From the NCBI GenBank assembly GCA_027475525.1, contig JAMWFC010000040.1, positions 316,725 through 380,724 on the forward strand: DNA of 64,000 bases, given 5' to 3'. The DNA comes from Macrolepiota albuminosa (lineage: Eukaryota > Basidiomycota > Agaricomycetes > Agaricales > Agaricaceae). This document shows positions 9,184 to 29,699 of the stretch, one piece after another. Position 1 is the stretch's first letter; every line of letters starts with the position of its first letter. A program made the translations under genes and the position numbers. The notes beneath the pieces are model-generated. The model was not told the DNA's origin and searched no databases. It saw only the letters and a program-made list of their open reading frames with translations.

Positions 9184-11170
9184 TTACAAACTATACGGGA
9201 ACCACGCGGAGCGATCGCCAAGCCCCGGAGCCTCATCCTCACGAGACGTCGTCATCCGAATCGTCGCCTTCTTCCTATTCTGGAGAATCAAATACCCAAT
9301 ATTCATTGCTGAAAAGACGATCATGAGAATGGAGAAAATGAGGAGTGTGAGGGTAGCTTTAGTGTAAAGGGGAGCGGGAGAAAGTGTCCCGAGAAGCCAC
9401 GTTGCGAGAATACCGCCCGAGTTCGTCATGATGAATCCAATTGCGATAGCGGTAGCTCGACGCGTGTAGGGCGCAGTATTGTTGGCATTCCATGTGGAGA
9501 GCGCAGGAGCACCGTTGTATGCGCCGCTAATACTCATGAATAGACTACCGTATTTGACGTGTGGGTTTTGGGATGCTGCAAGACATAAGAATAATTCATG
9601 TTGTTGACACGTGGTTTGACGTACCATAGAACATGGCAAAGCCTATCGTGGCGAGGATACCAGAGAATATACTGACGATGCCACGAGCTCCGTAACGGTC
9701 AGAGAGATATGATACAATGATGGAGACTGTAGGATACCAGAGAATATACTGACGATGCCACGAGCTCCGTAACGGTCAGAGAGATATGATACAATGATGG
9801 AGACTGTAATCTAATGTCAGTGTATGAACGTGAACAACGAAATGGTTCAGCTTACCAACAAAAGCCGCGGCGAAAGGAGGCACACTGTAAAGTTGGGCGT
9901 CGACGTTGGTATATCCTAGACCAGAAAGGATGGAGGGCGTGAAGCTATGGGAGCAGTCACGATATGTTCAACCTTTCAAAACATGATGATGACGTACTAT
10001 CCGAGAGCATAGATGAGAGTACCTGAGAACCATGCGATTAGAAAACTTGATCAACTAAACTGATGGAGATGTTACCATCGAAAAAGAAAGCTACAGCGAT
10101 CATCCACACGTGAGGAAGGGTAAACGCCTGCCAAATCTCGTGCCAGCTGAACGAATCCGCCTCATCTTGAAGGCCAGTAGCACCCGTCTCACGCAGACGG
10201 GCAACTACTTACTCCTTCTCCTCCTCAGTCAAGAATCTGGCCCGTGCAGGCGAATGCGGAAGGGTGAAGAATGAAGAGAGGCCAAATAAGACGGTGAAAA
10301 GACCTTCAAGGATGAATATCCATGCCCAGCCTGGACGATGGCCCACTCCATCCATGTGAATAATACCGTAGGCAAGGAGACCGGAGAAGGCGCCTGAGAG
10401 AGAGGCAGTGGAGAAGAAGGCAGATATCCTGAATAATTGGTCAGGTGCATGATAGTGGAAACAAATAACAATGTCAACTGACCGTGACTGGAGTTGTCGA
10501 CGTGGATACCAGAAGGATAGATACAAGACAAGGCCTGGGAATACACCACCTGCGTGAATGTATAAGGTAAGTAAGGATTAGTTATGCTGGAATTACACAC
10601 CTTCACAGAGACCGAGGAAGAATCGACACGCTAAAAGACCTTGATATGATTTGACGACTCCTGGAAGTGTAATCAATAACCTGCAATGTCTTGAAATCAT
10701 AGCACTAACAAACCTTGAAGAGTGGTGATAATTCCCCATAACGTCAGCATTGTAGGTAGCAGCAAGTTTGGTCCGACGGCCTACCCCAGATTAAGAATTA
10801 TTCAGGTGGAGACAGGATAATCGAAGCCACACCTTTAAGACAAGGTTTGAAGGAAGTTCCGCGATGATGTATGGAATGTAAGTCACTGTGAGCGCAATAC
10901 AGTATTCGTGGTTGTTCATCTTGAGATCAGTCTGCAAGCCTGCCACACGAGCGTTTCCGAGATTAGTCCGATCCTAGATATGATAGTGATACCATGAACC
11001 AGACAGAGCAAGATATCCCAACTTACCAGGAACGATAGCAAATAGAACATAGCCACCACAGGAAGAACGAAGACATCCACCTTCCGCCAGACCTTATCGA
11101 GCTTTGCGTCAAACACAGTCTTGTCGACGTCGATGGAACCAACAACCGAGGCCTTTTCTTTGTCTGTCAT
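9184..11170 (-). CDS. MFS transporter, anion:cation symporter (ACS) family
   Basis: Plasma-membrane proton symporter of the allantoate/nicotinate/pantothenate permease type. Exon 1 (11170-11027) encodes a cytosolic start MTDKEKASVVGSIDVDKT and TM1. Exon 2 (10973-10833) begins with the family motif DRTNLGNARVAGL. Later segments include SFWYPRRQLQSR, the cytosolic loop FLTEEEKE, SYLSDRYGARG and the C-terminal EDEAPGLGDRSAWF. The end is at 9184. An exact 77-bp tandem duplication (9654-9808) lies at the start of one exon and repeats its splice acceptor (ACAG then TCTCC). Using the acceptor nearer the 3' end keeps the frame; using the other adds 77 nt and shifts it. With one copy ignored the gene is intact. 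The substrate is probably a small organic anion or vitamin, not determinable here. Confidence 0.88.
9654..9808. repeat. Exact tandem duplication, period 77 bp
   Basis: Bases 9654-9730 are repeated without mismatch at 9731-9807, and one further base also matches. The unit covers the first coding bases of an ACS-transporter exon plus its intron acceptor. Seventy-seven is not a multiple of three, so the duplication breaks the reading frame unless the downstream acceptor is used. Confidence 0.97.
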
Positions 11171-14830: not shown

Positions 14831-16277
14831 TGCTGAGATTACCCCCTTGTTCACCTGTGAAGCTTTTGTGCAGCAATCTCGCAATACTTGCCCCTACCTG
14901 CAACCTCTGGATTGAATCATTGCGCGATCAAATGTGGTAGTACGTGCCATATGATTCGGGTGTATTTGTGTTGATTGAAAGTCCTCCACTCGTTCAGGCT
15001 CTTCCTAATGCATTTGGATATCACTGATTGGTAGGTAGTTGGAGACGTAGCATCGTATTTGTGTCAGGTCAATGTATTATCAACTATTTCTCGTTTCTCC
15101 ACAAAAAAGGTAACGATGCATCGAGCATGAAGGGGAAGCACGTGTAAGTCAGGTGCATTTCATCAGGCGTCATATGGTATAACACGACCGTGGTTAATAA
15201 TAACTGGTACCGAGAATTAAGTTTATAGCTCGTGAAAGTCGTCCACCTCCATGAGGCTTTCTGCTTCCTCAGGAACAATGCATCGCAAGTAAAGCTTCCA
15301 CCTAAACTGCTATTGGAAGTTCGGAACGTCCACAGGCATAAAATTCAGACATCCATGTCATGGTATGACTAGATTACCTGAGCAGGATTTTCTGTCTGGT
15401 TTCCAGGGCCTCTCATATGCTGCCTGTATAGCTCTAGGAATAGACTACTGAAACACTTTGCTGCAGAAAAATGAAGTGGAAGTATTAGTGTGAGTTGTCG
15501 AGATTTCTACATACCTGACCGGTCATGTGCTTCTAATTCTGTTGTCCATGTTCTCCCTTGTGTAAATTCGTTCATTTCTTCTAACGTCCGGCTGTTTTGG
15601 ATCATTGATACCATTTTCATGGCTTTCGTCCTCAACCCGGTGGGGCCTTATTTGATGTTGTGTTTTCTGTTTAGAGAAACAATGACTACGATATGGAAGA
15701 TCGTACAATCAGCGGTATCAGTGTGATGGTATTGATTGAGACCATGCCGTAACGCTGCGACTTATCGATGAGGTGGACGATGTCGATGATGTTGGATCCC
15801 ACCTTCATTTCCGCTGAGACTCCAATTGAGATCTACACGTGCTTGTGTTCTTGCTGATAAAGTTGGTCACATCTCGGCAACAATATTCATAGAGTACGGA
15901 TGTTCACATTGTGTTTGGCGTGTCTGTCATTCTTTTCTCATAAACGCTGTCATTAGTCAAGATCTACTTTCAGAATGATCTCTTGTACCATGAAATGCAA
16001 CATCACCAGAGATGCGAATACTTGACAAGGCCATATCCATAATGCTCACATAATAGTCCAGAATATACCTGACAAGACTAGATAGCGAAGAGGTTTGTCT
16101 GATGGGATCGGAGAAGACCTCGTTCAGATTCCGTGATCCGTGCATTAGCCGTGAGGCGGCCTCTTCGCGACAGTGGCAGTGCACGAAAGTTCCCGTTCTC
16201 CTGCCGTCAATGGTCAACTCATAAGAGACTCACTATACACGCTGTTCCCATCTTGTATCAACCTCAATGTCCTCAGA
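14831..16277. other. Gene-poor stretch before the SAMHD1-like gene
   Basis: No supported gene, RNA or repeat over about 1.4 kb. It should contain the promoter of the split HD-domain gene. Short open frames on both strands show no domain. Confidence 0.4.
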
Positions 16278-16751
16278 ATGTCTTCTGCAATTATCGACGA
16301 TAACATTGACGTGCAAGGAGTCACCAACAGTCGAGGCGAGGTTGTCGGTGCGCGATCCGTGAAGGATCCGATACACGACATAAGTACGACTCAAAGCACT
16401 TGAATTACGTTTTTTTTTCATCCTAAGTCTTTGCTACAGTTCCATTGTCTCCACGCCTTTGTAGGTTCATTGATACGTATGTGTATAATCATGAGGTCGT
16501 TTTGGGGCTAGAAAGGACTCTGCAGGAAACAATTTCAACGGCTGCGCAATATTAAGCAGCTGGGTACATCCTACTATGTCTGGCTAGGCGCCTCGCACAA
16601 TCGTTTGGAACATTGTATTGGTATGCGATTCTGTTTTGAATGTGTTACAAAAACCGTTACACGATCTCTGTTAAAGGCGTCGCGTTCCTTGCTTGGTCTA
16701 TGGCCACACATTTGAAGAATAACCAACCTGACCTCCATATCACGGATTGTG
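16278..16751 (+). pseudogene. SAMHD1-like HD-domain dNTPase, 5' part, cut by a transposon
   Basis: Four exons: 16278-16383, 16440-16476, 16526-16620 and 16677-16751. They read [52 protein letters not shown], then [11 protein letters not shown] and [16 protein letters not shown]. This is the N-terminal half of the HD fold of SAMHD1-type dNTP triphosphohydrolases, with the first metal-binding His in the EHCIG segment. Reading stops inside exon 4 at the TG before the transposon terminus at 16752. The remainder resumes at 25123. In the family the enzyme hydrolyses dNTPs to nucleoside plus triphosphate and is regulated by nucleotides. The split should abolish function. Confidence 0.88.
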
Positions 16752-16763
16752 CATCTACAAAAA
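16752..16763 (+). repeat. Left terminal inverted repeat
   Basis: CATCTACAAAAA, preceded by target-duplication TG. It matches the inverted right end at 25109-25120 for 12 of 12 bases. Confidence 0.85.
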
Positions 16764-16991
16764 TGACGGTACCATGTGAAGAATGTTATGGCTCACGTGG
16801 TGGGTATTAGGTATGTAAGGTGCTGCCAGCTGGGTATACGCCAGGCATGGCGACGGCAGGAAGGTAAGTCACAGAAATATCATTAATGGAAAGCATGTAC
16901 CATGTAGCGTATTAACTTACAGGTATCCCACATGTAAGGCAAGAATGGACTGATATAATCAATATATACAATGTCATGGTGTTTATCCGAG

Positions 16992-19900
16992 TTACAATTC
17001 TGCATAGCCCCACTCACCCTCGAGATCCTCAGCATCGTCTTTCCCATCCCCAGGGCCCAATCCGTCATTTAAACCATCATCGCTATCTGCCTGGCATTCA
17101 TTGTTGTCCGAGTCATTCTCAGACTCATCACCTTCTGACTCTTCAACTTGAAGCTGTTGATACATTGGGTTCTCATAGCCATAATCCTCTTCTTCATCTG
17201 TCAGAGTTTCATCTTCTGTATACTGAGGCCAGAGTTCATCACTAGTTTCTGCATTGACTTGGGGCCTATCACTGTCCATCGGTGTTTCACTAGTACTAGT
17301 AGTGGCATTTGCGTGTGCAGGGGCCATATGGCTTCTGTGTCTGTCTAATAAGAATGTATTGGTTGCTTCACGGGTAGATTTGTGGCCGATGCCACCACCA
17401 CGAAAGCGCATCACCATATCTGGGTCCACAAACCTAGGTTTTTGGTAAACTTGAAGTAAACAGAGTAGAGGCAAACAAAAATCTTACATTCCAACATCAT
17501 AAAACCTATAATCCTCATCTTTTTCACTTGGAGCACGAGCACTAGTGCTGGGTGGAAGAAGCTCAGAGGTCTTACCATTGCAAAATGAAGGAATCAAATG
17601 GACTCCTCGGATAACTCGTGTGGGATCGAGAAAACCAAATGCCGCATCATCATCACTATCAACAAAACCAATTTTATGCAGCCGTCATGCTTCCCATCCA
17701 GTCTTCAAGCTCACTTCATGCCCATACCAACGCACCCAAAGAAATTCCACATGCTGAGGATCACGAGAAGTCGATTCAGGACCAGTATGAAGGACTTTCA
17801 CATGGAAGATCCCAAGAATACGGCAGAACCAGTATGGAAATGGGTTTATTCCATCTTCTCCATCTTCTCGAGATAAAACAAGAGCATTGGCATGAGTACG
17901 GGGATTGAGAGTATCTTGAGCTCGCTGACAATCATATGTTGTATAATTCACACGAATCCATTTGTGTCGGTAGATTTTGTTGCCGACAATGTGAATATGG
18001 CGACGCTGTTCAGAGGTATACATGAGAATATCACCATCATACTCTTCTTTGAGCATGTGTGCTAAGCAATAGTCTTGGAGTTTGACCAAGAATCCCTAGC
18101 CAACAAAGAAATATTAATATATATACTGACACCAATAGCTTCTTTACCTCAAGAGTGGGATCATCTTCATTTTCACCGAGCCATTGTGGAAGTATGAGAG
18201 GATGTCGGACATCTTGTGCAATGATGTGGTGATCTTGTGGAGAGCCATTGGGCAAATATTCAGTTTCATTGAACTGAAGCCAAGGTGGTGTGAAATCATT
18301 GTCATGATGCTGCTTCCGTTTGTCACCTGTCTTTGGTTTGGGGGCTTTCACTTTCATGCGATTAAGAATCCGCTGTCGACGTTCATACTTTGCAATTCCA
18401 AGTGTATAGGTACTCTTCTGAATGACAGAGAAAATTCGTTTTACTCGGCGATGGGCTAATTCTCCCTGTGAAAAAAGGCTGTTAGACTTGTGACAGACTC
18501 AGAAATATATAAAATTTAAAGTCACCGTTTGAGTTGAATAATTATCTGTGGTTCCATGCAATTTAATACACTTGACATAGTCACCAAGACTATGCAATTT
18601 GATTGTCTTAAGATTCAATTCGCGGGTTCTTGATTTTTGTTGCTTTTTTAGAGGATTGTCAGTCTTTATACTTTTTTTACCACTTAGCACTTGTGATTGA
18701 GTAGCAGCCCATGCTGCTTTTCTTCGACCATGTGCAGCAACTTCACTTGGAAGTTCCCGTGTAACATACTCGGCACAAGTTGTTTTTTTGAAGTATCGGA
18801 GTTCCTGGCCAAGTCGTGTGAGTGAGCTGTCAAGATCTTGAAGAGTTGACTCTGTGTGTAACTTCAATTTTGCGAGGGCATGCCATGTTGCCAACTCAAA
18901 GAAAAGATTAATCAAATTAGAATTGTGTGGCTCAGGGAGTAGACCTTCAAAAGCAGGAATTGAACACTGTATAATCAATTACATTATTCAATGAAATAGA
19001 CTTCAAAACAATAGATTACATACCTGAAGGATATCTTCATAGTCCCGTGCTGCTAGCTTCTTTAACCCTGCTACATCATTTGAGAATTTTCGAATTGTAT
19101 TATGTCCAAATGTTGGAGTATTTCGAAATCTGCAAGACATGTGATTAAATTACACACTCAGATGAAAAAATATTAAGAAATAACCGTCTGTTCAGTTCTT
19201 GAATAGAGTCATTTCCTGCAGCATATAAGATGCGGAGGCAGTGCTTGAGTACTGCTGCAAAAACTCCAATTTCAAATTCATGCAAAATATCGGAACAGAG
19301 TAAGTTGTGAAAGTCAAATCCAAAAGGACCAAGGCGAACAGAAAAAGCATTCTATAGAACTATTAGCCTGGTATAATTAGTTACAAAAATAGTGAGCTTA
19401 CACAAGATGAAGTAAGTGATCCATATTCAAGTAGTCCTTTGACTACAGTACTTCCATATGTGTATCCTTTTTCAAATAGTTTTCAGCGTACATTTTCAAC
19501 ACGTTTCTGGCGAGTTTCATTATCTACATGAAGTTGTTTTTGTCTCCGCTGTTGATCAGACTTTTCACCAATTTGTGAAATTTCTTCAGTCCGAATTAAG
19601 CATTGTGGACATGGATAATTAGCTAGATACTGAATGCAAATCATGAGGATTCTGAAAAAAAAAATCAATGAATGGCCAGAAAAATAAATAATATTACTGA
19701 CTTTTCTGGATAATCCATTCCATGTATCATAAACCGAGGAAAATAGCGCCGAACAACAGCATCAGGGCCAGATGAGATCAATCCATTCTGATAAATTTCC
19801 ATAAAATCATTGTCCAAAAGAATAAGCTACACAGCATTCATAATTTCACGTCACATAAATGTCATGATCTCTGCAGAGGCAGGTTGACCATATTGACTAA

Positions 19901-21481
19901 TATACCAGTCTTGAAACATGTCAGATAACTTGATAATGATTAGCTCTGAGAATTGAATAAGTAGATGATCATTTACCTTGGGTATATATGCAAGATGGTT
20001 CTCTGAATTTGATGTAGGCTTTCCTCGGATTGTTTTCCACTGATTAGCAGAATAAAAGTAGATTGGCCAAAGAGAAGCCTTGCCAAAATTAGTCAGATGT
20101 GTTGAATCTGACCAAATAGCAATTCCAAGTACAACATTTTCAATTTCATCTGTCTGAGGAAGGTTATGGACCTTCATAAACTCAGCTATGAAATTATCTG
20201 AAGTAAACATATCACCAAAAATCCGCTCATGGTGAGAACCTGGAAAAGGATTCCAGAACATTTTATAAGGATGGAGAACAAAAGTAGATGCTGCTGGCCC
20301 ATTGATAATGCTAGCAAGTACAGCACTCATAGACCGATGAGCAAGACCAGGGAGTTCAAATACAGGTGCATGGGCTTCTGAGGTATGTTTAACACCATCA
20401 CAAGGCACAGATATCTTGAGTGTTGACTGTTTCCATCCATCACTTGCTGAAAAAGGTGATGAGGCTGCCTCTCTGAAGTCATCTAGTCGTTTACTTTCTC
20501 TGCCAGCATTAAAATCCTTCAATTCCACTGTATCCCAATCATCTCGCAGGATGTAATCATGAACAAGGCGATTAACTTCAGCATCTGATTTGAGATTTGA
20601 GCCAGATAATTGCCATTCTTTGAGAAGGAATGTTGTCGGATTTTTGAATGGTGCAAAGTAAGCTGTCTTTGCAATATCAGGTGTTGAGCCAAAGGGACTC
20701 CACCATGGTTGGTTGTCAGAGGTGCTTTGGCTACTTGCAAATGTGGGAGCATTGGATGTATGAGAAAGCGAATAGAATTCTTCTGGAGTGAATGATGGTT
20801 GACCTCCAGGATAGACATGATATATACCAAAGCTATTGGGTTTGGTACAATAGATAACTGGCTCTGGAGATGGACTAGGAATAGTTTCTTGAGTTGAAGC
20901 ATCAGTGATAGGTGAAATATCATGAATAGGTGAAGGATCATGAATAAGTGGTGGTGGTGGTGGTGGCATTAAGTCTATATAGTGATAGGTGAAATATCAT
21001 GAATAGGTGAAGGATCATGAATAAGTGGTGGTGGTGGTGGTGGCATTAAGTCTATATAGCCCTTAGGCAGTCGGATGGCACGATTTGGTCTTCCAGATGG
21101 TCGAAAAGCAGGAAAAGAAGGTAGTGGGTCTTCTACAGTCCTTGGAAGAGGCAGAGGTAAAGGCAGTAACATAGAAATTCTTTCATCAGCCTGAGCATTT
21201 GAAGTACTAGCATCCTAGAAGTAAAAACTGGTAAGTTCCAAAATTATATGCATCAGATTGGGACACACTAGCAGCTCAGTCTCCTCCAATCCTGTATCTT
21301 CCATTTCTGGCCTTTGAACTCCACTCTGTGACAGTTCATCAACTTTTCTCTTGTTAAAAATATTAAGAACTTGAGTGGCCTTGCGCTGCATGAATCTGCA
21401 CTGTCTTTTGTGAGTTGACAGCCCAGAACTAGTACCAAAGGTCTTGTGGCAAGCAGGACAAGAGAAACTAGATGGTGGCAT
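16992..21481 (-). pseudogene. Plavaka (KDZ-like) transposase, decayed
   Basis: DNA transposase of the Plavaka group that Iyer and colleagues described in basidiomycetes. The likely start at 21481 gives a C2H2-type zinc finger (CPACHKTFGTSSGLSTHKRQC). Exon 1 runs 21481-21269; exon 2 starts at 21214. Family blocks follow: PGLAHRSMSAVLASIING, GIAIWSDSTHLTNFGKASLW, YPCPQCL, IPAFEGLLPEPHNSNLINL, LATWHALAKLKLHTESTL, GDYVKCIKLHGTTDNYSTQT and AHRRVKR. The tail is acidic and ends at 16992. Decay includes a 77-bp duplication (20904) that shifts the frame, stops at 19851-19853 and 19827-19829, and another near 19485. The stops fit C-to-T or G-to-A changes. I cannot place the catalytic acidic residues with confidence. 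Confidence 0.87.
20904..21059. repeat. Exact tandem duplication, period 77 bp, in the transposase gene
   Basis: Bases 20904-20980 recur exactly at 20981-21057, plus two more matching bases. The unit encodes a poly-Pro segment (MPPPPPPLIHDPSP). One copy fewer joins the two flanking reading frames. Its period equals that of the duplication at 9654. Confidence 0.97.
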
Positions 21482-22142
21482 AGTCACAGTGAGAAGAAAA
21501 GCCTCTGCTGCTGTTTGTAAAGGAGGAGAATAGATCACAGGATAAGAGTAGGAACAGGTTGTAGAATAGCACTCCTTGAAGCAGCCACAAATTGAACTTC
21601 TCAACTAGAGCAAACGAGAGGGCTAATACTACAATGTAATGCAAGTTTTTGACTAAATAAAAGAGAGAGGAGAGATGGTGAGCAAAAAAAATGAGACAAG
21701 ACTATTATATACAGACTGAGAGATCTATGAGTATTGAGGTGAGATAGCCTTACATGGCTATGGCCAACAAAGGCTTACTATATTTTATCAAACTTGTAGA
21801 TACAAATCTTTTTGATAAAGCTGCAGGGAGAGATGAGGAGGAAGCTCATTGTTGTAGAGTGAGTGTCTCACCTTGATTTCAAGCAGAGTAAAACTTGAAT
21901 AATAGGGCCTGGGGATGGGAGAATGGAGTAGACAAACTTCTGTACTCTACAAATCAACTTGGAGTGAACAATGTGTGGTGAGAGAGTGACTATGCACTCA
22001 CCTATGCTGCAATGAAGCAATCGGAAGAGAGATAGTGGTGGCAAGAGACAAGAAGGCTGTTCCTGACTCATCATCTGCTGGCACAACTATGGTGCCATGC
22101 CGAGAACGGCTTGAGTTCAAACTGTGAACAAATATCGTCACG

Positions 22143-22196
22143 ATACTGACCTTGTATTGTGTCACAAACATACTGACCTTGTGTCGTGTCACAAAC
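22143..22196. repeat. 27-bp direct tandem repeat between divergent cargo genes
   Basis: Two copies (22143-22169, 22170-22196) begin ATACTGACCTTGT and differ at two positions. They lie directly upstream of the DUF6698-like start at 22207, within the presumed shared promoter region of the transposon. Confidence 0.8.
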
Positions 22197-22206
22197 ACTT
22201 CATCAC

Positions 22207-24641
22207 ATGCCTTCTCGCCCTCCACTACATCCCTCTTCAAGTCCTCCTTCAAGCTTCTCTCAACAAATCACTTCAAAGGCCAATTCAAATGATGAGCATG
22301 CAAAGAAAGTGTTGAAGAACCTGCAGGAAGGATCTTGCCGAAAGACAACTGAGTAAGTGCAGTCAATCACCTGCATATATGCATCAACATACATTTTTTC
22401 AAGCCGGAAAAACTCACTGAAGACATATACTGATATGGCACGCTGGATACCTCTCTCTATAGACCCTTTCATGATTGTAGGGAATGTTATATACACTGCA
22501 CTGGAACAATCTGAGCAATCCAAGTGCATCATTCTCTATTTTACACTCAACTTACTGTCAATAGATGTAGTGAGGACCAAGCTATACTTTTGGCTCAATA
22601 TCAGGCCATTCTCAAGCTTGAACCACGACTAGAAAATGTATTGCAATGCCTCAACGAAGAACAGCTGAATAATTTTATCAAAGAGGTAAGTCAATGTGGT
22701 TTACTTTCTATGGTTTAACCCGATTATCAATAGATTGAAGAGGCAATGAATGGAGCACGAACTGACAATACCTCATCATTGAAGCCCGCAATCATCAAGT
22801 ACATTTTGAAGGACCCAGACGCTAATCTCAACCCTAAGGTACCTGAAACAGGAGCAAAAGCATGCCATGCCTTTCGACATCCTGTCTTTGCCCGCCATCT
22901 TTGTCCAATCAAGAAACTTACTATGTTTGATCGCGATCCTGAGTAAGTTTCTTGCTCTTATAGCATCGGCTCTGATCTAGTAATTTCCTTCATAGATCAT
23001 TCATGGACAAAGTCAATAAAGGGAAGAACGGGTATATTATCACAGCTTCTGACTGGCCTTCTTTCGTTTATGATCTTGATTTATTTGACCCAAATGACCG
23101 GACAAAGGGGTTGATGAGAGGTTATTTGCTTCTTCGAGTGAGCTCTCAGATCCGCCATAAGACTTATTGACTTGTATATTTGATAGGTTTATCGTCATAT
23201 ATTTACCAGCCCATCATCTGCACTGTCTGGCCATCGAAGTGCGACAAAACCCTGTATCACACACCTCCATGGTCTGAAAGAAGTCACTCCAAGAACGATT
23301 GCATATACAATTATTCAAGTATGTTGATTTTCTTTTCATGACCTCTACTACCAATTTTTTAGACCTACTTCGCTCTCTCTTCAATGGAAAAGTGGAGTCA
23401 GAAGGATGGATCTTTTGACTATCAAAAGCTTTACGATATGGTTGTGAAGTTATTTGAGTCTGATCCTGATCAGCAGTGGGTCATCAACACATTAAAATGG
23501 TGGAACGAGTAAGTGCATCTGATTTTTTGGTATGGTGCTCATATATTTCATTGCGTGATAGGAATGTACCAGAGCTCAAATCGGAATCCAAAAGGAAGAG
23601 AAAGCGGAGGGCTGTGTTCAAGAAGCAGGATAATGAGAGTGACAATGCTGCTGAGGAGGTTTTACGCACATGGAAGGCTCAGAAAACTCAACGGGTACGC
23701 AATTCCTATTATACATCTGTATACTTCAATGATTGTCAACAGGAATCGAGCTCCATCTCGCAGACACCAGATCCACCTGAAACACAGCAAGATTCTTCTC
23801 TGCACCGTCAATACTCATCCTCTCCGACTTCACCACAGCCTCGTGCATGTTCTCCAAAAAGTGGCAACCATCAGACAGGTTTCTTTCATAATGACCACAT
23901 GCATCAGCATAATGACTTTCGACCAGCAGACCAACAATATGACGATCGTCGACATGGGGAACGGCAACATGAAGACCGTCAACAAGTAGATCCTTGACGT
24001 GTAGGATATCGACATGGAGATGACCGACACAAAGAACGCCGATACCAGGAATATTGGCAGGAGCCTGAGGGTCATTACTATGACCGACACAATTTTCAAT
24101 ACCAGGAGCAGGGCCTGTCCATCGACCACCACGAGGGACGTTGATACTACAATGAATATTACAATGTTCCATACAGATACAATGACTATCGACGTGAGGA
24201 TATGCGGTGCAACCCCCGTGTGGATCAAGCCCGTGGCTATCGTGAGCAAGTACTTCCTGTAAGTCTTGATTATTTCCGAGTCCATGACTAGTATTTTCGC
24301 ATCATGTTGATGTTCTTTATCAGCCTCACTCGCTCCAGCAGCCAGACAATATACGCATGCCCCTCCAACCACAGCAGTTCCGATCCATCACAAGACAAGC
24401 CGAAAAACTTTCTCAATCTAGCCGCGACAGGGAGGATGAGCAGGAATTGTCACCTGGAGAGAAGGACTCAGACTCGAGCTTGAATGATGATGAGCATCGA
24501 AATGAGGACAACTCGCCCATGAACCCACCTGAGACTCGAGAAGATGGACCAGAGGAAGGTGAGGGTGACGGTAACCTTTCGGGGGAGGGAGAGGTGGAGG
24601 ATACTGCCAGGCCACCTCGACTCTTTAAGCGCCGTCGTTAA
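22207..24641 (+). pseudogene. DUF6698-like protein carried by the transposon, two in-frame TGA
   Basis: Nine exons fit with perfect phase: 22207-22352, 22565-22685, 22734-22942, 22996-23137, 23187-23318, 23363-23508, 23562-23694, 23743-24258, 24324-24641 (621 codons). The central part, from NFIKEIEEAMNGARTD through GYLLLRVYRHIFTSPSSALS, HGLKEVTPRTIAYTIIQTYF and WVINTLKWWNENVPEL, resembles DUF6698 proteins as I remember them. It is followed by a basic stretch (KRKRKRRAVFKK), then a His/Arg/Gln-rich low-complexity region, and an acidic tail ending PPRLFKRRR. TGA codons at 23995 and 24142 interrupt only the Arg-rich low-complexity part. All other codons and splice sites are clean, so inactivation looks recent or partial. 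The molecular role is unknown; a nuclear protein is likely from the basic patches. Confidence 0.75.
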
Positions 24642-25108
24642 GTTGTTCTGTTTCTTCGCTTTGCTTGTTGCTTGTTCAGTCATTGTTTTGTTCTGCTAGA
24701 TTCAATACCACGCTTCATTGCATTGTTCAAGTTTGTCCGTGTTTGCCATAGCATGCTGCATGATCATTGTCTCCCTTGTCTCGTTGCTTTGTTCCAAATG
24801 TATCATTAGTGTGTAATCCGATAATCAACGAATTTTATTAATGGACTCGGATAATGATGACAATTGAGTGAAGGAAAGGTTAGATAGTAGTGCTAGTATA
24901 TACATCCAGGTAATAAGCCATACATGATACATTAACAATACATAGAATGTCATGCTGGCAACAAAACCTGGCAGACGTCGACCCATACAAAGCCAAGTAA
25001 GGGTGCACATCCATGTAATGCCGGACATGGAACACCACCTGGATTGTAGCCCAGGTACCCTCCGGTAGCCCATGTATACCCGGCTATAGGGTATCCATGG
25101 CGCTGTTG

Positions 25109-25120
25109 TTTTTGTAGATG
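25109..25120 (-). repeat. Right terminal inverted repeat
   Basis: TTTTTGTAGATG on the plus strand, the exact inverse of the left end, followed by target-duplication TG and then coding sequence of the interrupted host gene. Confidence 0.85.
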
Positions 25121-25122
25121 TG

Positions 25123-26876
25123 ATATCGAATGTGTTGAAATTGCAGGTCTTTGCCACGACCTTGGTCATGGGCCTTGGAGCCACTTGTGGGACGGGCAGT
25201 TTATACCAAAAGCACTGTGCGTTTTTTCTTCGAACATTCATTTCGGCACGCGATTGAACGTCTAACTTTACTTTTTTTGACAGGCCTGGGAAATCATGGA
25301 CGCATGAAGATGCGTCCATCATGATGTTTAATAATTTGATAGAGGAAAATGGGATCCGCATGAAGTCACAAGACATTGCATTTATCAAAGCTCTTATTTC
25401 TGGCGATCCGAAACAGTGTCGGTCAGTCTTTGTTGTCGGGAAAGAGGCCGTATCTCTGACTATCGCATAGCTCGGATGAGAAACCCTTCCTGTTTGACAT
25501 TGTCGCCAACAAACGGAACGGGCTCGATGTGGACAAGTGAGTGATTCAGGTTTCCATGTTACTGCGCATAGACCGTTCAATTTTAGGTTTGACTATATAC
25601 CGCGCGATTCACACATGGTGGGTGACAAGATGAGCATAGCTGTCATGTGGTTTGTCGTGACGTCTCTCTTCCTCATAAATCATAAATATATTGATCTTTT
25701 ATAAAAACTAAGATCATAAACTCTGCCCGCGTTCTTGACAATCAGATATGTTATGATATTAAGAATGCAAACCTCATATACGAGATTTGTGCTACTAGGT
25801 TCAAACTACACAAGATGATTTATAGTCACAAGGCTGGTATGCCATATCCTCCTTAGCAAACGTTCTACTCTTTTATCCTCTGTCCAGGGAAGGCGATCGA
25901 ATATATGATCACAGATGCGCTTCTCAAAGCAGATCCATACCTGCAGATTGCAAAGCGTGTTTTCAATCCCAAGCGGTATCTTTACCTTACGGATGGTATT
26001 ATGGAACGCATTGAAGAGTCCACAGAGATTGTAAGTTAAACGGATGTACTGCATTTCCTGGCTCAAGGTTCATACAGGAATTGGAGAGAGCTCGTTCAAT
26101 CTTTGAACGCATTCGGACACGGGATCTTTACAAGATGGTTGATTACAAGGTTGTCGACTGGCCTTGGGCAGAGATATTCCAGACAAACATTACTCCCAAA
26201 GCAATTGTTGAAGCTGCGAGGAAGCTTAGTGAGGATGATCCCTCAATCAGAGATATTGTCCGGACCCTCAGTGTCAAGCATGTAATCTGCGATTTTTCAC
26301 TGATGCATTACGGGATGAGGGAGAAGAATCCCCTCGACTCTGTCAAGTTCTACTCTAAACGGCATCCAAATGGTATGTTCTCAGTCTTTTAGGATTCACT
26401 TCAAAGACTTCTAACGACTGCCCTTAGAACCTTCTCATGCCAAACGCGGCGTCTATTCAAACCTGATGCCCCAGTTTTTTGCAGAGCTCCTCGTCCGTAT
26501 CTTTACCAGGGACACCGAGTACTTTGGTGTCATCCAGGCGGGGTACAGACTGTGCCTTGAGAATCTTCCTTTGAGCCTTCCTTCCAGAATCGACAACCCC
26601 GCCTCGGACCAGTTTGGTCTCCACCCTATCCTTCCCACCACATCTCCGTCTTCTCAAACATTAGCAGAAATAACACCGACGCCTAGCCCACCTATCCACG
26701 ATCTGCCGGCGCTGACTACGCCTAGGACATTCTCCCACGTTAGCAGCTTCTCGCGTACAGGCCCTGGGGGCACCACGGATGACGCCCCATTTTCGAACAA
26801 TAATTTCACGACCGTAGAAAGGTCGTTTGCACCCCCGAGCCCTTCTCGCAAGTCAAAGCGGCGAAAGGTGGATTAG
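25123..26876 (+). pseudogene. SAMHD1-like HD-domain dNTPase, 3' part
   Basis: Continues exon 4 of the gene begun at 16278. Segments: 25123-25216, 25284-25421, 25471-25536, 25587-25641, 25713-25836, 25888-26030, 26078-26372, 26428-26876. They read [17 protein letters not shown] (the HD motif), PGKSWTHEDASIMMF, FLFDIVANKRNGLDVDKFDY (third metal-ligand region), YLTDGIMERIEE, MHYGMREKNPLDSVKFYSK and MPQFFAELLVRIF. The tail is Ser/Pro-rich and ends SRKSKRRKVD, a plausible nuclear localisation signal. With the 5' part and without the transposon the exons sum to 1677 nt, an open frame of 558 residues. No stop or frameshift exists in either half, so the insertion looks young relative to the decay seen elsewhere. 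Confidence 0.9.
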
Positions 26877-28081
26877 TGGACTGGGTCCGAGCAAGGAGGA
26901 TGGTTTCAGCAATTGGTTGGAATAGGACATTACTTTGTACATATACCGAAACAGACAGTGGATGATAATTGTCACATGCAAATTGTTAAATATACATAGA
27001 GTAACAAAACCGATTCCATAATTCGATTTGTTTTAGTGTTGAATCAAGTCAATACACATAGTTCTCGAGCGTGATAGCAATTCGACGGTGAGGGATGGGA
27101 TAATCGGGGGAAATAACCACTTAGAAATACGAGGGTACTATACGGTTACCGGAATTCACCGGCACCATCCGCAGCTTCGGCAGAAGTCTCCAGACTACGC
27201 CCAGGCTTCTGTGGAGTAGACTCTGATTTTGTGCAAGTTTCCGGTGTCCATCATGACACCAAAGGTACAGATATCACGGAATCGTGTATTTAAAGCATAT
27301 GACTCGTTGGTACACTGGACAGTTTCGTATGTGGACGCCCATGCACGCCTTCTAATTTACTTCCATATTCCTTCGCACTGCCAATTGTCGATCACGAGGT
27401 AAATCCCTCAGGCGGGTTCATCGGCCCGAGATAATTTCGTTCACGTGTGCTTCGTCTTGCAGACATCATTGAGCGCTCCCATCATTCTGACCCGGGACCA
27501 AGATGAAACTGGATTCTTTTTCAAAGCACGTCGTGTTTCACTGTTCATCCCCACCCTCTAGTACGGTATCACCAGGCCGTGCAAACCGATCACCGTAATC
27601 TGCCCAGTAGGACTGTTCGTCTCTGGAAGGCCTATAGATCCATGTATCCCGCTCAGGAAGATACTTACTTTTATGGCTTCTGTAACGTGGTATGTAATTT
27701 ACAATATGTTGATTCCGTTGAATGCTATAAATACCGGTACTGACTCTACTATGGTCTAGGCGTGCACTGTGACGTTGACCTTCTTGATTTCCACACAATG
27801 ACTCGGTCAACTACCAAATCAAAACGTCATAACCCTGGAACAGGGAACAAAGCCGCGGATGGGAAGTAGTCCTGCTCGCTCGGCAATTCGACATAACAAC
27901 ATCACACAACCTCAACCCGTTCGGTTCGCACATAGCCAGCGCTAACGAGTCAACAACAGATGTTTTTTTCCTAAATAATCTTGGTCAAAACGCAGAAGCT
28001 GTGAAAGCTCCGTCACAGCATGTTTTATGGAGGGATATAAAACCCATCGTGGATGTAGTGTTATCCATTAATTTCTTCGAC
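26877..28081. other. Intergenic region, no gene supported
   Basis: A 90-codon minus-strand open frame (27538-27810) has no recognisable domain or splice partners. The region contains the 3' flank of the HD-domain gene and the promoter of the dehydrogenase. Confidence 0.35.
28036..28042 (+). promoter_or_regulatory. TATA box of the short-chain dehydrogenase
   Basis: TATAAAA within GGGATATAAAACCC, 46 bases upstream of the ATG at 28082. The short distance implies a very short 5' leader. Confidence 0.5.
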
Positions 28082-29340
28082 ATGAATAACCAGCAACTCG
28101 TTTGGCTTATCACTGGAACCTCGTGCGTCTATCATATTATAGATTCGTATATTGTTTTGCTCACGTACGATAGGTCTGGACTAGGCCGTGAGCTTGTCCT
28201 TGCTGCACTACATAGGGGAGATAAAGTCATAGCAACTGCCCGTCCACGGTCCTTGGACAAGCTTATTGATCTCAAGGCCGAAGGAGCTGATATTCTAGAG
28301 CTCGACGTGACGGACACTCTTGACAACTTGCGCGAGATAGCTCGAAGAGCTGTTGAGATCCATGGCAGGGTCGATGTCCTCATCAATAATGCTGGTCAGT
28401 GCCAACCTTTTACCATTTACATCCCGAGGTACAATTCATACGTCGATAGGCTATCTCTTGGTTGGCGCAATAGAAGAAAACACGTATGTCTCCTGCCTAA
28501 ATGAATGACCCTTGGTTCATGCATCTAATTATCAATATCATGTCAGGCCAGAGCAAACATTCGATGAGTTCAAGTAAGTCAAGTTGTCAAGCGACGTCAA
28601 AATTTGAGCTGACATTTATCCAGCACCAACGTCCTTGGTGGACTCAACGTCACACGTGCATTCCTTCCATATATGCGTGAACGGCGAACTGGTACCATCC
28701 TATTCCTTGGGTCTTTGCGTGGTTGGGGGTGACTGTCATCTCTTCTTTCGATCAAATCAGAGATTAACATCCATTCTAGTGCATTCCCAAATGCAGGGAT
28801 CTACACTGCTACGAAGTTCGCTCTACGTGGTATAGTATCTTCATCTCTTGCTATAAAGCATTTGCAAACGTCACTTTTTGATATATAGGTATATCCACAA
28901 CCCTCCATGCTGAAATCTCTCCGCTTGGCCTGCGAAGCATTTGCGCCGAGTTTGGTTACTTCCGCACGCCGATCCTCGCAACAGCACGCCATGTGCCACA
29001 AAGCGTCCTGATCTCCGATTATAATTCAGTAACTGATGCTGACAACAACTTTATGGATCGTGCGTTCGCTCAATCATACTTTTCGTGTATTATGTGTTCA
29101 GCGTTGTTCGATTTGATTAAATGCACAGGATTCGATGGTACGCAACCTGGGGATCCGATCAAGGGGGTCCAAGTCATTGTTGATGTGGTGAGAGCGGAGG
29201 GCGTCGCCTATGGGAAATCATTCCCGACCGTTTTGGCTGTTGGACAAGATTGTTACGATGTTGCAAAGACGGAATCGGAGAAGACACTTATGCGTCTTGA
29301 GGAGTGGAAGGATGTTTCGTGTTATACAGACTATGACTAG
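28082..29340 (+). CDS. Short-chain dehydrogenase/reductase, classical SDR
   Basis: NAD(P)-dependent oxidoreductase, 286 residues, cytosolic. Exons: 28082-28122, 28174-28394, 28450-28483, 28547-28573, 28624-28728, 28780-28829, 28889-29059, 29129-29340 (861 nt, all phases agree). The Rossmann motif is ITGTSSGLGRELV, split by intron 1. Then come LDVTD, VDVLINNAG, the catalytic Ser in FLGSLRGWG and the YTATK pair (Tyr and Lys). The C-terminal part includes QPGDPIKGVQVIVDVVR, typical of the fungal group of reductases acting on ketone or aldehyde intermediates. The substrate is unknown. The last intron could be missed because its 5' part stays open; the donor GTGCGT at 29060 restores the family's QPGDP context. 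The gene looks intact. Confidence 0.92.
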
Positions 29341-29699
29341 GGTCTTGGTGGCATCCCTGATCCCTCTTGATTTTGCCTTGCGTTTATGTCTTAATCTATC
29401 TTTTGTTAGTCGCTTACAATAGCTGCTAGGACTTTGGGGTTAGCATCCCGGGTCCTTAACAATAGTACATATCGAAATAGTACACATCGAAATAGTTGAT
29501 ATCGAATTATTCCTTCTGTACCTTGCTCTATAATAGGTATACTTTTGTTTGTCAATCAACCTTTCCCGATCAACAGGAACCTAGTGACAATAGGCACCTT
29601 TACTTCACGGCGAAAGATTGACATGATTAGAGGGAGTAAAAAGAAAAATCAATGAACTTAGTGCTTTCAAGATAGGAGATGTTAACTTTAGCAAAAAGC
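29341..29699. other. Intergenic region with short direct repeats
   Basis: Between the dehydrogenase stop and the tRNA. About 29464-29508 holds three imperfect copies of a unit like ATCGAAATAGTACAC. Nothing else is visible. Confidence 0.5.

Follow-up and report, generated by a model that had tools for sequence, protein, structure and literature searches.

The window (the 64,000-nt stretch of DNA analyzed here) contains a SAMHD1-like gene whose exon 4 is interrupted by an element of 8369 bp as assembled (16752-25120). This element harbors two genes arranged head-to-head, and the features of the locus are as follows.

16278-16751, + strand: 5' part of the host gene (gene model, PF01966, SAMHD1 structures), consisting of exons 1-3 and the first 75 nt of exon 4; exons at 16278-16383, 16440-16476, 16526-16620 and 16677-16751 (start of exon 4)
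16750-16751: left copy of the target site duplication (TSD), TG, from the junction sequence; a single TG in 4/4 empty loci
16752-25120: Plavaka element, 8369 bp as assembled, 8292 bp minus a probable 77-bp artefact
16752-16763, + strand: left terminal inverted repeat (TIR), 12 bp, CATCTACAAAAA
16992-21481, - strand: Plavaka transposase gene (PF18759) with four in-frame stops, at 19851-19853, 19827-19829, 19483-19485 and 17685-17687
20904-21059: exact tandem duplication of 77 bp within the transposase gene, probably left by an assembly overlap that was not merged
22207-24641, + strand: DUF6698 gene, head-to-head with the transposase gene; the 388 aa used for searching are uninterrupted, and stops occur in the tail, whose exons are provisional
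25109-25120, - strand: right TIR, 12 bp, reverse complement of CATCTACAAAAA
25121-25122: right copy of the TSD, TG, from the junction sequence
25123-26876, + strand: 3' part of the host gene, consisting of the last 94 nt of exon 4 and exons 5-11; HD motif near the junction
25642-25712, + strand: host intron as modeled in the first-pass annotation, with an acceptor shifted by 1 nt relative to the four empty copies

The host gene was modeled with 11 exons and ten GT-AG introns of 47-71 nt. Without the element and one TG, exon 4 measures 75 + 94 = 169 nt and the joined reading 1677 nt. Both lengths given in the first-pass annotation were thus reproduced, although the 1677-nt frame depends on one nonconserved splice donor. 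The joined protein has an HD domain (PF01966, E 2e-8) and matches SAMHD1 structures in the PDB (best E 7.5e-94), the top PDB match overall being a chain labelled merely HD domain-containing protein. Among the matches listed, its closest relative is a protein from Termitomyces sp. T159_Od127 (80% over 99%), which makes it probable that the genome belongs to the same group. Homology runs through the junction with no gap relative to any of 19 aligned relatives, which were picked from 120 listed, as expected for a SAMHD1-like protein. The element interrupts codon 105 behind its first base, ~11 residues short of the catalytic HD motif at residues 116-117, and the host frame reads into the element as ...LHITDC-ASTKMTVPCEECYGSRGGY-stop. 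As this translation shows, the insertion ends the host protein after residue 104 and 19 more residues, before the catalytic motif, and the protein would be expected to lose its function.

At the left junction, the host flank ...GGATTGTG is followed by CATCTACAAAAA from 16752. At the right junction, the element end TTTTTGTAGATG runs to 25120 and is followed by TG (25121-25122) and then by ATATCGAATG. The perfect 12-bp repeats continue inwards as an imperfect repeat, with 20 of 25 positions equal.

Empty loci and the state of the interrupted host copy

The joined protein was found at four more loci in the 100-Mb assembly (C66, C39, C111, and C117), all of which align with the window to the left and right of the gene. 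At each of them, the flank alignments end at 16751 and resume at 25121 with a 2-base overlap. This is the empty-site junction that had been predicted from the window, no differing junction having been found, and it establishes to the base the 12-bp inverted ends and the TG duplication proposed in the first-pass annotation. Since these alignments to all four empty loci go together with common 12-mer ends elsewhere in the genome, chance is no reasonable account of the ends, and fortuitous repeats were ruled out as their source.

Over the gene region, identity to the window is 93.5% for C66, 93.4% for C39, 87.7% for C111, and 88.1% for C117. Together with its neighbors, the SAMHD1-like gene makes up a block (window 15239-29551) of which the near-haploid assembly contains five or more copies, those on C39 and C117 being no more than ~15 kb from the end of a contig. 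Only three places matched the RNA polymerase large-subunit family (PF04997; 9 matches, best candidates scored). This indicates that the assembly is close to haploid and that the five loci most likely arose by duplication of the block, the empty loci being probably gene duplicates rather than alleles. Since the C66 copy (L050) has an AT instead of a GT donor, at a different intron from the one with the shifted acceptor, not every empty copy need be functional.

The window copy differs from the others in the splicing of one intron, where TAG precedes CATC in all four empty copies and TAAG precedes ATC in the window. With the conserved donor, the window copy reaches a stop at residue 225, whereas combining this donor with each copy's own acceptor gives an open reading up to the stop in C66 and C39 and across the aligned part in C111 and C117. 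The 1677-nt reading requires another donor 8 nt upstream, which costs three residues and is unnecessary in the other copies. That a host frame is open says little about how recent an insertion is, and, because the window copy has a stop under the conserved donor, the missing stops do not show recency here. The idea drawn from them, that the insertion is recent or is one allele, did not hold up, the more so since the loci are probably duplicates.

On the window branch, 12 of the 25 private coding changes are nonsynonymous, including R86W and R104C. Residue 104 is an arginine in 19/19 relatives and residue 86 in 17/19, and these two changes, together with the shifted acceptor, suggest that the window copy has lost constraint. 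The nonsynonymous/synonymous counts themselves (window, 12/13; C66+C39 stem, 7/17; C66, 4/4; C39, 6/3; C111, 22/12; C117, 23/4) do not single out the window branch. Other branches have similar or higher nonsynonymous shares, except for the C66+C39 stem (7 of 24), so the counts are no proof of relaxed selection. Just left of the element (100 bp, 16651-16751, 89 sites), all three private changes are CpG transitions, two of which give R86W and R104C, while the first 100 bp on the right have no private change in 97 sites; these numbers are too few to claim that methylation spread into the host flank.

Other copies of the element and alternative readings of the junctions

The 14-mer TGCATCTACAAAAA occurs at 12 places in the genome, and a more specific terminal pattern at 24, compared with two for its reversed control, all such genome-wide repeat counts being lower bounds. 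At least three copies are complete and two-ended: those in the window, C68, and C14. The C68 copy (8446 bp) has the same ends, shows 88 differences in 8292 sites (1.06%), and is flanked by CT/CT in element orientation. The C14 copy (C14:362456-382945, L029-L031) also has the same ends, is split by a ~12-kb nested insert, and is flanked by the nonmatching dinucleotides TG and CA. Hence, the search for other copies bore out the termini, since the same 12-mer terminates both further complete copies that were found, but it bore out the duplication only in C68. Inverted ends with a 2-3 bp TSD, as is typical of Plavaka, are therefore seen in two of three complete copies (window, TG/TG; C68, CT/CT). 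The remaining ends are solo, truncated, or belong to relatives for which no second end was found, and the extra stretches on C59 and C29 likewise yielded no second end and hence no further TSD.

In 182,411 bases (the window and 13 fetched loci) scanned for exact tandem duplications with periods of 20-399, 14 of the 15 found have a period of 77. They lie at 9654-9808 and 20904-21059 in the window, and in L028, L030, L032, L033, L034, L050, and L051, and very probably are an assembly artefact, of the kind expected when a k = 77 graph assembly leaves overlaps unmerged. With 14 of 15 sharing this period, the transposase frame break at 20904-21059 is probably not real, and we dropped it as a biological break of the gene. 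The element has one such duplication in the window and two in C68; once these are removed, both copies measure 8292 bp (8369 - 77 and 8446 - 154). This is a warning against taking frameshifts in this assembly as biology. No telomere repeats were found in the window.

These findings are best explained, with a probability of about 0.93, by the insertion of a cut-and-paste DNA transposon of the Plavaka type at a TG in exon 4, in one of five or more copies of a SAMHD1-like dNTPase gene carried by a mushroom that is probably close to Termitomyces. The transposase, the host homology, and the four empty loci all uphold the original description of a Plavaka insertion in a SAMHD1-like exon. In transposons of this class, a staggered cut that is filled in gives rise to the target duplication, and the same would account for the 2 bp duplicated here, as seen by comparison with the empty loci. 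Counting against this explanation are the C14 copy, with its same ends and nonmatching flanks; ends that start with CATCT rather than the CATCA of published PlavakaB; and the presence of 77-bp join artefacts in an assembly through which alone the junctions are known, although none of these artefacts lies at either junction.

The same two observations, namely the probable unmerged overlaps and the C14 copy without a matching TSD, could speak for a scaffold misjoin that placed a repeat contig into the gene. Such a misjoin is very improbable since it cannot make a 2-bp duplication together with the termini of other copies, where four loci have a single TG, and neither junction shows a 77-bp duplication. 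Equally improbable is intron-like removal of the element from the transcript of a gene that still works. The frame is kept when the element and one TG are omitted, as that would demand, but the element is bordered by CA and TG instead of GT and AG, its 8 kb far exceed the ten introns of the host, and R86W, R104C, and the shifted acceptor elsewhere in the gene suggest lost constraint. Somewhat less remote, though still unlikely, is that the insertion is a heterozygous allele and the gene is intact in the strain, some of the empty loci being alleles of other nuclei in a phased or unpurged assembly. C66 and C39 are 97.8% alike and C111 and C117 96.4%, as unpurged haplotypes could be, and C117 is a short contig of 56 kb. 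However, two nuclei would not account for five copies that are 87-98% identical, the three PF04997 places are those expected for three paralogues per haploid set, and the matches listed include no near-identical partner for the window copy. An insertion of a Plavaka element into one of several duplicates thus remains the preferred reading. Although the clean landing of a known transposon type in one of several duplicate nucleotide-metabolism genes is an ordinary event, it provides an exact insertion site, with four empty sites in the same genome, for an understudied group of fungal transposons.

As for the transposase, it matches PF18759 with 45.4 bits (cut-off 26.3), and PF18759 is also present in 44 of its 45 listed relatives (the exception is P0146), the best Plavaka relative among the matches listed being 63% over 96%. 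N-terminal C2H2 finger matches are weak and below their cut-offs, and a CPQC stretch is visible in the translation, the CMCT clade being defined by C(2)C and H(3-4)H between the second D and the last E. The four stops are private to the window copy, C68 and C14 having sense codons there, and so they probably arose after the insertion. In 8114 element sites, there are 55 private changes in the window, 32 in C68, and 95 in C14, of which 37, 23, and 88, respectively, are C>T or G>A and 19, 8, and 48 are in CpG. The CpG observed/expected ratio is 0.50 in the element vs. 0.65 in the window outside 16000-27000. This pattern looks like decay of methylated DNA: the copy would have decayed mainly by C-to-T changes, often at CpG. 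With its transposase now apparently broken, the copy would move only if transposase were supplied from elsewhere. Private changes on the window host branch number 51 in 2126 sites (2.4%), 10 of them in CpG, while the element has 0.7%, which at equal rates is an upper bound on the time since insertion. The insertion therefore took place well after the split of the gene copies.

Relation to known Plavaka families and the DUF6698 gene

Passages of Kojima 2025 (PMC12730594), which covers Plavaka families of various Agaricomycotina, report termini and TSDs, namely TGT..ACA ends with a 2-bp TSD for PlavakaA and CATCA..TGATG ends with a 2-3 bp TSD for PlavakaB. The ends found here, CATCT..AGATG, are unlike those of PlavakaA and share four of five bases with those of PlavakaB, the fifth being T instead of A. 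Judged by its transposase, the element is a Plavaka, and it resembles PlavakaB in its CATC..GATG ends, with CATCT for CATCA, its 2-3 bp TSD, and its occurrence in Agaricomycotina. It differs from PlavakaB, as portrayed in those passages, by a DUF6698 gene instead of TET/JBP, no match to which turned up in a scan of the DUF6698 protein and seven ORF pieces of the element. The Plavaka families of Marasmius oreades are, in passages of PMC8290104, likewise defined by pfam18759, with bounds curated by TIR and TSD and a characterized TIR motif, and the passages of PMC8290104 and PMC9674265 that mention Plavaka give no Plavaka terminal sequence. Iyer et al. 2014 is cited in this literature as a source for the KDZ and Plavaka groups. 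To call the window a rare exact definition of Plavaka termini, as had been done, was thus an overstatement in light of the termini and TSDs in PMC12730594. Plavaka ends and TSDs are already published; the unexpected part is the DUF6698 gene.

The product of this gene matches PF20414 (E 6.4e-66). Between the window and C29, dN is 0.22 and dS 2.2 (saturated) over 315 codons, which points to purifying selection. Genome-wide, DUF6698 has 24 matches in eight loci, four of which have a PF18759 match nearby, at 1.8-2.4 kb in the window copy, C68, and C29 and at 15 kb in C14, where the nested insert lies between. A fifth locus, on C123, is ~1.2 kb from a matching terminus, and the remaining three loci, of which C45 has two and C114 one, lack a nearby Plavaka match. 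In turn, DUF6698 is so placed at 4 of the 25 places into which 33 PF18759 matches were grouped. The C29 gene part is 68.9% identical to the window in DNA over 1455 aligned bases and hence represents another family; a left end there is 88% similar, lies 15 kb away, and may be a separate piece.

From this linkage and selection, the DUF6698 gene looks like a second Plavaka protein, new here, that probably is an accessory protein of transposition. We consider it somewhat favored that DUF6698 is the dedicated second protein of one Plavaka branch, kept by selection and acting with the transposase in end binding or complex assembly. If true, DUF6698, an orphan mushroom family named only by its DUF number, would gain a role in transposition; no paper mentioning the name was found in the limited collection searched. 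CACTA/En-Spm transposons are two-gene elements in which a transposase and a second unrelated protein share one TIR element. RAG1L/RAG2L elements have the same layout (PMC7204232). The likeness of DUF6698 to TNPA of CACTA/En-Spm and to RAG2 lies in this two-protein layout, with no sequence or fold link shown.

PF18759 and PF20414 occur in one protein in 2 of the 45 listed transposase relatives, both gene models of Favolaschia claudopus, in which the two would be on one strand, in contrast to the head-to-head genes here. No PF18759 was found in the 24 DUF6698 relatives, in a search limited to proteins of at most 1.75 times the query length. P0142, from the tag beside the transposase of Termitomyces sp. 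Mi166, was rejected as a candidate, as it matches the window protein in parts only and has no Pfam family. The AlphaFold model of one DUF6698 relative (P0121) has a mean pLDDT of 56.7, too low for a fold comparison. In Termitomyces sp. Mi166, the consecutive tags C0995_013927 and C0995_013928, whose contigs are equal in length, correspond to a Plavaka transposase and a partial relative of the DUF6698 protein.
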